Assembly: GCA_904393115.1 (NCBI GenBank)
Contig: CAJFMX010000002.1
Coordinates: 1-64,000 of the forward strand
Reading direction: 5' to 3'
From: an uncultured Clostridia bacterium
GTDB lineage: Bacteria > Bacillota > Clostridia > Christensenellales > UBA1750
Length of the DNA: 64,000 bases
Shown: positions 1 to 7,200 of the stretch, in pieces
How positions within the stretch are numbered: position 1 is the first letter of the stretch
Layout of the letters: every line of letters begins with the position of its first letter
Notes under the pieces: model-generated
Told to the model about the DNA's origin: nothing
Databases searched by the model: none
What the model saw: the letters and a program-made list of their open reading frames with translations, nothing else
Position numbers and translations under genes: made by a program

Positions 1-200
1 ACATTCCCCACACAGTTTTCAACCGAGCCGTTGAAAAACTCCGCTTCAACAGACATCCACAATTTATCCACAGCCCTTTTTTTAAAACTTCTCCCTCGAA
101 AAAAAAGGCCTCACGCGGTTTTGCGGACTTTTCCACTTTTCAGCGCCTACTACTAAGACTACTAAAATAAAAGATAAGATGCATGGATTTATATATTGAC
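1..200. other. oriC: Candidate replication origin core (oriC, dnaA-dnaN type)
   Basis: A perfect DnaA box TTATCCACA lies at 64-72, with weaker boxes at 53-61 (ACATCCACA), 4-12 (TTCCCCACA) and 129-137 (TTTTCCACT). The last box is followed by a short GC-rich spacer (139-146). Then come tandem CTACTACTAAGACTACTAAA triplets (147-166), the layout of the DnaA-trio unwinding element of Bacillus-type origins, and an A+T-rich stretch to about 196. An inverted repeat AGTTTTCAAC/GTTGAAAA-A-CT lies at 14-40. The next ORF begins as DnaN, as expected for a dnaA-dnaN intergenic origin; dnaA would lie left of the window. Seen: motifs and order. Inferred: origin function. Bases 200-380 hold no clear feature beyond A+T-rich DNA. 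Confidence 0.75.
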
Positions 201-397
201 CTGCAGCAGCTGCAAGTCCGACGGATAATCCTGCAACGGCAGTTAAGATAATACACTCTGTATATTTGTCAAAGAAGCACGCTCACCTCACCCTTTACCG
301 GGTTGTATAAACATACAAGCTATACGGCGCAAAGCGCTGTTCCAAATATGCCGGCAAGCAATGGCCGGCCTTCATTTCATTGAAAGGGGTTGACATT

Positions 398-583
398 ATG
401 AACCTGACCTGTACCAAACAACAGCTGGTAGAGGCTGTTTCAAACGTACAACGCGCAGTTTCTTCCAAATCCTCCGTCCCCGCGCTGGAGACGCCCGCGC
501 CGACCGCGGACATTCCCCAGGAGGACGGCTCCAACATCTACGAAACCTTCCCGAGCGAAGACGACAGCAACGTCTACGAATAG
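398..583 (+). CDS. Truncated/chimeric DnaN N-terminal fragment (61 aa)
   Basis: The ATG at 398 follows GAAAGGGG and fits better than an in-frame TTG at 380. Residues 1-31 (MNLTCTKQQLVEAV... to SSVPALE) match the start of the beta sliding clamp DnaN, which is normally about 370 aa. After ALE the similarity stops. A 30-residue acidic tail follows, with two related units, EDGSNIYE and EDDSNVYE, and then TAG. None of the remaining clamp is found downstream; an MscS gene follows after 25 bp. It is either a chimeric remnant left by a rearrangement next to the origin, or a small expressed protein that borrowed the dnaN leader. A clamp cannot be made from it, so a complete dnaN must exist elsewhere. 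The open frame is certain; the function is unknown. Confidence 0.7.
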   Translation: MNLTCTKQQLVEAVSNVQRAVSSKSSVPALETPAPTADIPQEDGSNIYETFPSEDDSNVYE

Positions 584-608: not shown

Positions 609-1445
609 ATGCCAACTATGAGCCTGTCCAGCGCGATCCTGAACTGGGAGACGATCGGCAGCGCGATCCTGGACATCCTGTGGATGGTGGTCAAGGGCCT
701 GATCGTCCTGGGCATCGGGGTCCTGATCATCAAGTGGCTGATGCGCCTGAGCACCGCGTGCCTCAAGCGCAGCCGCCTGAGCGTCACGCTGCACGCCTTC
801 ATCCTCTCCAGCGTCAAGGTGATCAGCTACGTCTTCCTCATCATCATCGTCCTGTCCGTCCTGGGCATCCCGACGACCTCCCTCATCACGGCCATCGGCA
901 CCGCGGGCGTGGCCATCGGCCTGGCCCTCAAGGACAGCCTCTCCAACTTTGCCAGCGGCGTGCTGATCCTGGCCAACGCGCCCTTTAAGGTGGGCGATTT
1001 CGTGGACCTGAACGGGCAGAGCGGCACGGTGCTGGAGATCGGCCTGATGGAGACCAAGCTGCGCACCGTGGACAACCGCCACATCGTCATCCCCAACAAC
1101 ACCGTGACAAACGGCATCGTCGTCAACTTCTCTTCCGAGACGAACCGCCGCCTGGACCTGGACTTCACCATCGCCTATGAGGACGACGCGGAGCTCGCCA
1201 TCTCGCTCATCCGCGGCATCATCGCGGAGAAGGGCGACCGCATCCTGCGCGAGCCCGCCGAGCCCTTCGTCATGGTCACCGGCTACCTGGACAGCGCGGT
1301 CAAGATCACGATGCGCGTCTGGTGCCCGGCCTCCGACCTCTGGAACCTCAACTTCGAGTTCCTCAAGGAGGTCAAGGCCGCCTTCGACCAGCACAACATC
1401 CACATTCCCTACAACCAGATGGACGTGCACATCGTCAAGGACTGA
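609..1445 (+). CDS. mscS: Small-conductance mechanosensitive channel, MscS family
   Basis: This 278-aa protein is close to the usual MscS length (about 286 aa). It would release solutes through the inner membrane on hypo-osmotic shock. Hydrophobic helices lie at about 22-48 and 68-92. The pore-lining TM3 (about 95-125) has the Gly/Ala-rich pattern of the family and ends in LKDSLSNFASG. The beta domain follows (FKVGDFVDLNGQSGTV, then the NRHIVIPNN motif) and an alpha/beta C-terminal domain. The ATG at 609 is preceded by AAGGAAAGGGG. It stands alone between the dnaN fragment and an intrinsic terminator. Confidence 0.93.
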   Translation: MPTMSLSSAILNWETIGSAILDILWMVVKGLIVLGIGVLIIKWLMRLSTACLKRSRLSVTLHAFILSSVKVISYVFLIIIVLSVLGIPTTSLITAIGTAGVAIGLALKDSLSNFASGVLILANAPFKVGDFVDLNGQSGTVLEIGLMETKLRTVDNRHIVIPNNTVTNGIVVNFSSETNRRLDLDFTIAYEDDAELAISLIRGIIAEKGDRILREPAEPFVMVTGYLDSAVKITMRVWCPASDLWNLNFEFLKEVKAAFDQHNIHIPYNQMDVHIVKD

Positions 1446-4268: not shown

Positions 4269-7200
4269 TTATTCCTCCGTGGTCTGGGCGTCGTAGAAGT
4301 AGCGGCCGATCATGTAGGGGTAGCCGTCGTGCGTGCCGTCCGCGTGCACGTCCGCATAGACGTTGTAGGTCTTGCCCTCCTCCAGGGCCTTGCCCTCGAC
4401 CATCTCCAGGTAGAGGATCTGGGGTTCCTCCGCCGTGCCGACGTTGTAGAGGCAGGTGTAGGGATCGGTCGAGAGCACCTGCGTCACCGAGCCCGTGCAC
4501 AGGAAGGGCTGGAAGGTGCCGGCGTAGTTGCCCAGGTTGGCGTACTCCATCTTAAAGGCCTTCTCCACGTACTCGTTCGCGGTGGGGAGGTAGGTGATGG
4601 TGTGGGTCAGCGTCGAGCTCTTGTCGCCGCTTGTCGCGGTGATGACCACGTCGTTCTCGCCAAAGGAGGGCATCTGCGCCACGAAGGAGAAAGTTCCGTC
4701 CTCGTTCAGGGTGACGTCGCCCTGCGTGGGGGAGGTGACCTCGATCTGCACGCCGGGCGCGACGCTGCCGGAGATGGTGACCGTGTCGGTCTCCACCGTC
4801 GAGGGCGTGGAGGAGTCCAGCTCAATGGGCACCTCCATCACCGGCCGGGTGATGACGATGTCCTGCGTCACGGACTTGCAGCCTTCCTTCATCACGACGA
4901 TGGGGATGGTGTTTTCGCCCGTGGGCGTCACGTCCACGTTATAGATGATGGAGCCCACGCCGCCCTCTTCCTCCGTGATCATGTCCGAGACGTCCTCGCC
5001 CGCGATGGTGACGGTGGAGCCCGTCTCCACGCGGATCTGCACCTGATAGGTGCCAAGGGTCGTGTCTGCCGCGCCGCCCGCGGGGTTGACGATCTCCAGG
5101 TAGGCGTCCGGCGGGGTCACCACAAAGGTGATGGGGTCCATGTTCGTCTCGCGCCCGCTGCCGGCCTCGTGCAGCACGGGGGTGAGCGTGACCTCCACGT
5201 CCTCGTTGACGATGCGGTCGCCGATCAGCGCGCTGTCCTCGACCTGCAGCGTGCCCACGCCCCCGGCGATGGAGACGTTGTAGCTCGTGCCCAGGTCCTC
5301 GTTGGTGACGTAGATCAGGTCGCCGTCATTGCCCTTGAAGGTGATGATGTGGCCCGGCCGGCCGTTCACCTCGCCCGTGGTCACGGTCGGGGCGTTGGGA
5401 TCGACCTCCTGCGCAGGCGTCTGCGAGGGCGAAACCGAGCCCTCGGGCGAGCCCTCGGCCGGCTCGCGGTTCAGCAGCGCGCGGATGCCCATCACCGCGC
5501 CGAAGACGATCAGCGCCAGGAGCACCAGCGCCGCCGCGCCCACCAGGATCATGCGCTGCAGGTTCTGCACGCGCAGGCCCGCCAACGGGCCGCCGCTCCG
5601 GCTGGGGGAATCCGCCCCCGGACCCCGGTCCCCGGGCCCGTCGTCCGATCCGCCGCCGGAGCCGCCGCGCGGGGCGCGCGGGCGCATCGGCGACTCGGCG
5701 CGGGGCGCGCGGGTGGGCCGCTCCGGGGCGGGCAGGCGCCGCTCCCGGCTCTGGGCCCGCGGCGCGTACTCCTGCTCCCGCGGCGCTTCCCGGCGGCGCG
5801 GGGCGGAGGAGACCGGCGCCTCGCGCCGGCGCGTCACGGTTTCCTCGGGCATCTCCCGGGGCATTTCGCGGGGCGCTTCCCGCCGCGCGCGCGCAGGACC
5901 CGCCGTGGGATGCTCTTCGGCGCGGCGCTGGAGCACGGAGGTGCTGCGCGCCGCCTCGTGCCGCGCGATGGCGTCCAGACCGCTGCGCGCCGGCGCGCCG
6001 TAGACGCCCTCGTCCGCGAAGCCAAAGTCCGCACTGGGGTCGGGGGCCTGCCGGCCGTAGCCAGCCTCGCCGCGGTTGGCGCGGGGCGCGGGCCGGCGCG
6101 CGCCCTCCTGCTGGGAAAGTGCCTCGCGCTCCTGCATCTCGCGCTCGCGCTCCATGCGCAGGGCGCGCTCGTGGCGGGAGCTCGTCTCCTCGCTGATGGG
6201 CGTCTGCGGAGTGCGCGCCTGTGGGGTTCGCTCCTGTGGAGTGCGCCCCTGCGAGGTTCGCGCCTGTGGGGCCTGGCGGCGCGGGGCCTGCGCCGCGCGC
6301 CGGGGCCTGGTGAATTCCTCCTGTCCCAAGTTGATCAGCGCCTCCTTGACCCATGCGGGCTGTTCCGGCTGGGGGGCTTCCTGCGGCGTCTCCGCCTCGG
6401 GCGCGGGCTCGGCCTTTTCCGGCTCCGCCGGGCGGGGAAGCTCGATGGCCTCGTCAAAGGGATCGGTGTTCTGCACCTCGGCCACGAGGTTCCGCTTGGC
6501 CGTGGCAAAGGCCGTGAACTCGTCGCCCTGCTCGTCGGCCTTCTTCGCGGCCAGGCGCGCGGTGGGCTTGAAGTCCGCAACGCGCTCCACGCGCGGCTCC
6601 GCCTTGGGCGGGCGGGCCTTGTATACGGTCTGCGGCTCGTCCTCCGCCTCGGGCGCGGGCGGCAGGCGCTTGCGGCTCATCAGCTTGCGCGGCCGGGGTT
6701 CGTCCACCGGGGAGGTCCCCCGTCCGCCCGCCAGGTGCGCGGGGGGATTGGTGAAGATCGCGTGGATGATCTCGTGGCTGATGGCCGGGTCCGGCGGCGC
6801 GACCTCCGGCTCCGAAGCGGCCGGGATCGGGTTCGGCGCGGGCTGCGCGGCCGGCTGCTTGCCGACGACGGGCGCAAAGCGCCGCGTCTCCTGCGCCGGC
6901 TCTTCCGCCTCCTGCGGCGCGCGGTAGACGGTTGCCGGCTCCTCGTCCTCCGAGGCCGCCGGCGCGGCCGGCTCAGCTTGCGCGTCCTGGGCGGCAGGCG
7001 CGGGCGCGTCCCCTCGCTGCGGCGCGCGGTAGACCGTGACCGGCTCCTCGTCCTCCTGCGCCTCCGGGGGGACCGGAACTTCCGGGGCGGCCGGAACGAC
7101 CGGCGCGGCCGGAGCCTCCGGAGCGGCCGGAGCCTCCGGAGCGGCCGGGACCGCCTGCGAAGCGCGCGGCGCGCGGTACGCGGTCACCGGCTCCTCGTCC

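Follow-up and report, generated by a model that had tools for sequence, protein, structure and literature searches.

A dnaN start at the end of a draft Clostridia contig is very probably foreign DNA joined to a resident gene

It is well documented that metagenome assemblies contain misassemblies, and k-mer assemblers have been discussed in this connection (PMC8172020). GUNC (PMC8201837) is a tool for detecting genome chimerism. The locus studied here resembles chimeric metagenome contigs in that a single contig appears to hold sequence of two lineages, with the change near its end and accompanied by a break in base composition. It differs in that the foreign part is very short, about 490 bases, which is likely below what gene-based chimerism tests notice. 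The second point of comparison is the dnaA-dnaN region of Acutalibacteraceae (Anaeromassilibacillus sp. An200, Candidatus Caccousia and several Clostridia bins), with which our locus shares the order of blocks in the intergenic spacer and the start of dnaN. In contrast to these relatives, the gene seen here is truncated after 31 codons, and the best DNA identity to the foreign piece is 83% over 72 bases.

The window, that is the whole stretch of 64,000 nucleotides that we analysed, comprises bases 1–64,000 of contig C2 in the draft genome G000, with window base 1 being contig base 1. The reading frame of interest, at 398–583, lies less than 600 bases from the end of this contig. The genome consists of 62 contigs totalling 2.73 Mb, and its completeness is rated at 97.96% and its contamination at 0%; from its fragmented state we assume it to be metagenome-derived.

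The dnaN start and its relatives

Frame 398–583 translates into MNLTCTKQQLVEAVSNVQRAVSSKSSVPALE followed by TPAPTADIPQEDGSNIYETFPSEDDSNVYE and a stop, and a ribosome-site-like sequence, GAAAGGGG, lies 5' of it. The earlier note had described a DnaN start with its own ribosome site that ends at ALE and runs into an acidic tail with two related units, EDGSNIYE and EDDSNVYE. This description holds: the frame is as stated, homologous dnaN genes align through base 489 or 490 and no further, and both acidic units are present at the peptide level, with tandem-repeat scoring of the DNA yielding no scored repeat for them. Residues 1–30 of the frame (window 398–490) align to positions 1–30 of the Pfam DnaN N-terminal domain PF00712. 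The 31-residue piece reaches 20.8 bits (E = 0.00046), under the family cut-off of 24.4 bits, as expected for a fragment. PF02767 and PF02768 are absent, so that by its domains the frame does not encode a DnaN. No Rfam family was matched.

We found no match to bases 1–500 in 296 other genomes of the order, the four congeners included; only the genome itself contains them. Rather, the 31 DnaN residues have one strong match, at 77%, in another family of the class (genome G674), and the DNA of the piece matches six genomes of that family, distributed over three genera. The best DNA matches stop at base 489 or 490 in five of these six, and the sixth spans bases 56–166 in the spacer. A degenerate peptide pattern led to seven named records (Anaeromassilibacillus sp. 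An200, Candidatus Gallacutalibacter pullicola, two Candidatus Caccousia and three Clostridia bins), of which Anaeromassilibacillus is placed in Acutalibacteraceae by NCBI. In all seven, PALE continues into GILL, where the window reads PALE-TPAP. Wherever their sequence extends far enough, dnaA lies 5' of dnaN. Bases 398–490 (plus strand) thus correspond to the first 31 codons of a foreign dnaN, with 71–87% peptide and 73–83% DNA identity to dnaN of that family.

Bases 1–397 (plus strand), which are low in G+C and truncated by the contig start, resemble the origin-type dnaA-dnaN spacer of the same family. Blocks within 1–171, with TTCCCCAC at the start and another whose end is near base 171, are found again in the relatives' spacers in the same order, and blocks 1–38, 56–166 and 128–171 match dnaA-dnaN spacers of Acutalibacteraceae with their order kept. 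Bases 1–490 therefore combine a dnaN start with the ordered spacer blocks of this family, as a dnaA-dnaN segment foreign to the genome would. When near-exact donor patterns were sought among genome contigs and viral contigs, none appeared, and the donor species was not found there. Among the relatives, spacer length varies: two (L066 and L067) have long dnaA-dnaN spacers of about 1,035 and 1,277 bases, versus 273 in L063 and L069, and both carry a non-ATG codon at the aligned dnaN start.

The base composition changes as well. Bases 1–490 have a G+C content of 45.3%, compared with 67.4% in the rest of the window, a value below that of every one of 6,302 overlapping stretches of 490 bases taken from the window. 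Their tetranucleotide fit is poorer than that of all 1,261 sampled stretches. Because origin spacers are frequently AT-rich, composition by itself would say little; more weight falls on the phylogenetic match and on how abruptly it ends.

The resident side of the proposed join

Downstream, bases 609–1445 (plus strand) encode a resident MscS-type mechanosensitive channel (PF00924 and PF21082), whose protein is 74% identical in congener G004 and 68% identical in congener G002. Both congeners have the same neighbours 3' of this gene as found here, and in both a LytR-CpsA-Psr (LCP) gene lies directly 5' of it in the same direction. In G000, the LCP gene sits on the minus strand of a different contig, C44, where it leaves the contig end and breaks off about 17 codons short of the congeners' protein end. 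Its PF03816 domain is on the C44 piece, and the acidic tail (491–583) is on C2. We looked for an overlap between the C44 end and C2 and found none beyond chance.

In order and direction, the genes of the resident part thus agree with the LCP-MscS locus of G004 and G002. Unlike the tail that we propose for 491–583, the LCP proteins of these two congeners end in LLPDA or LLPGA, without an acidic extension. By LCP protein, the nearest relative is G003 (84% identical). Its longer Pro/Ala/Glu tail, LLPGSEEAVPAPSES, also leaves a contig end and is truncated by it. Across the order, a search for homologues of the acidic tail gave no E-value better than 0.05 other than for the tail itself. The LCP-MscS order in G004 and G002, the end of C44 inside the LCP gene and the extended tail of G003 suggest that the resident LCP gene, whose body lies on C44, most likely has its true C-terminus in bases 491–583 (plus strand), which would form an extended acidic tail rich in Pro and Ala.

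The proposed join and its possible causes

The dnaN matches end at base 489 or 490, we place the join at 474–491 (unstranded), and within the single contig C2 the lineage changes sharply at about base 490. Because the genome has an intact dnaN of its own on contig C4, because the segment occupies a contig end and because the foreign match ends at the join, and further because the composition breaks and the LCP gene is broken off on another contig, we consider it very probable that the start of C2 is a chimeric end, in which about 490 foreign bases are joined to resident DNA. The donor would be a co-occurring Acutalibacteraceae-like bacterium contributing about 490 bases of dnaA-dnaN spacer and dnaN start, and the join would fall within the resident LCP gene, in its C-terminal portion, and would have arisen in library preparation or assembly. 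The LCP tail of G003 contains, in the same frame, the 10-base word CCGTCCCCGC that lies just 5' of the join (474–483). Such a short common word could favour a false join through template switching or assembly, and it may represent microhomology of this kind, or ten bases of GC-rich DNA shared by chance. The frame with its dnaN start and acidic tail would then not be a real gene.

A chimeric contig end explains all of our observations and leaves no essential-gene puzzle. When a contig end carries a short foreign tail, a false but convincing gene fusion can result, as can the semblance of essential-gene loss, and such tails may escape completeness and contamination checks (here 97.96% and 0%); a foreign tail of 490 bases need not register in a contamination rating of 0%. 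Frame 398–583 is relevant as a warning only.

Foreign sequence within an otherwise resident contig would also be seen if a foreign origin fragment carrying DnaA-box-like sites had really inserted into this strain's LCP gene beside mscS, by recent horizontal transfer or as an integrated element. However, the fragment starts exactly at the contig start and stops mid-gene, it matches no mobile element and nothing in phage and plasmid collections, and it is unseen in the four congeners. An insertion would moreover disrupt the LCP gene, the other part of which ends on a different contig. We find nothing that favours a real insertion and regard it as quite unlikely.

A dnaN-like start with origin-type sequence 5' of the frame could also point to a duplicated or second origin segment of the genome's own lineage, or to a dnaN that has moved. 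Domain searches of G000 found the central clamp domain in a single gene, on contig C4, and the DnaA C-terminal domain in a single dnaA just 5' of it. The gene order there is dnaA, dnaN, recF, and Pfam identifies a three-domain DnaN (PF00712, PF02767 and PF02768), a full DnaA and a RecF/SMC-type protein. The C4 DnaN starts with MKFVCQKEDLMQGLSVASKASATRSPQAVLE, clearly unlike the DnaN start in the window. The genome has its essential dnaN, undamaged and at the customary location. Relocation is not supported, the sole full dnaN being in dnaA-dnaN-recF order on C4. Nor is a second copy of the genome's own origin segment: a search of G000 with bases 1–600 returned no second copy, the DnaN start of C4 is unlike that in the window, and the matches lie in another family. 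We give an own-lineage origin next to no credence.

The earlier note had offered a moved dnaN, a duplicated origin segment and a chimeric assembly as three options. The last is strongly supported, and the first two are contradicted by the C4 locus and the matches in another family. It had also called all three notable, which does not hold for a chimeric contig end when the assembly is a draft.

A real short fusion protein of 31 DnaN residues and an acidic tail, functioning in its own right, for example as a clamp-related peptide, would account for the open frame and the plausible ribosome site and is scarcely credible, as 31 residues make up roughly one quarter of a single clamp domain, a search for homologues of the fusion found none, and each half is separately explained.

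Contigs break inside the same LCP C-terminal tail in two assemblies of the genus, at the start of C44 in G000 (L048) and at the end of contig C26 in G003, base 5292 (L098). This tail may be hard to assemble, owing to a repeat or to very high G+C.
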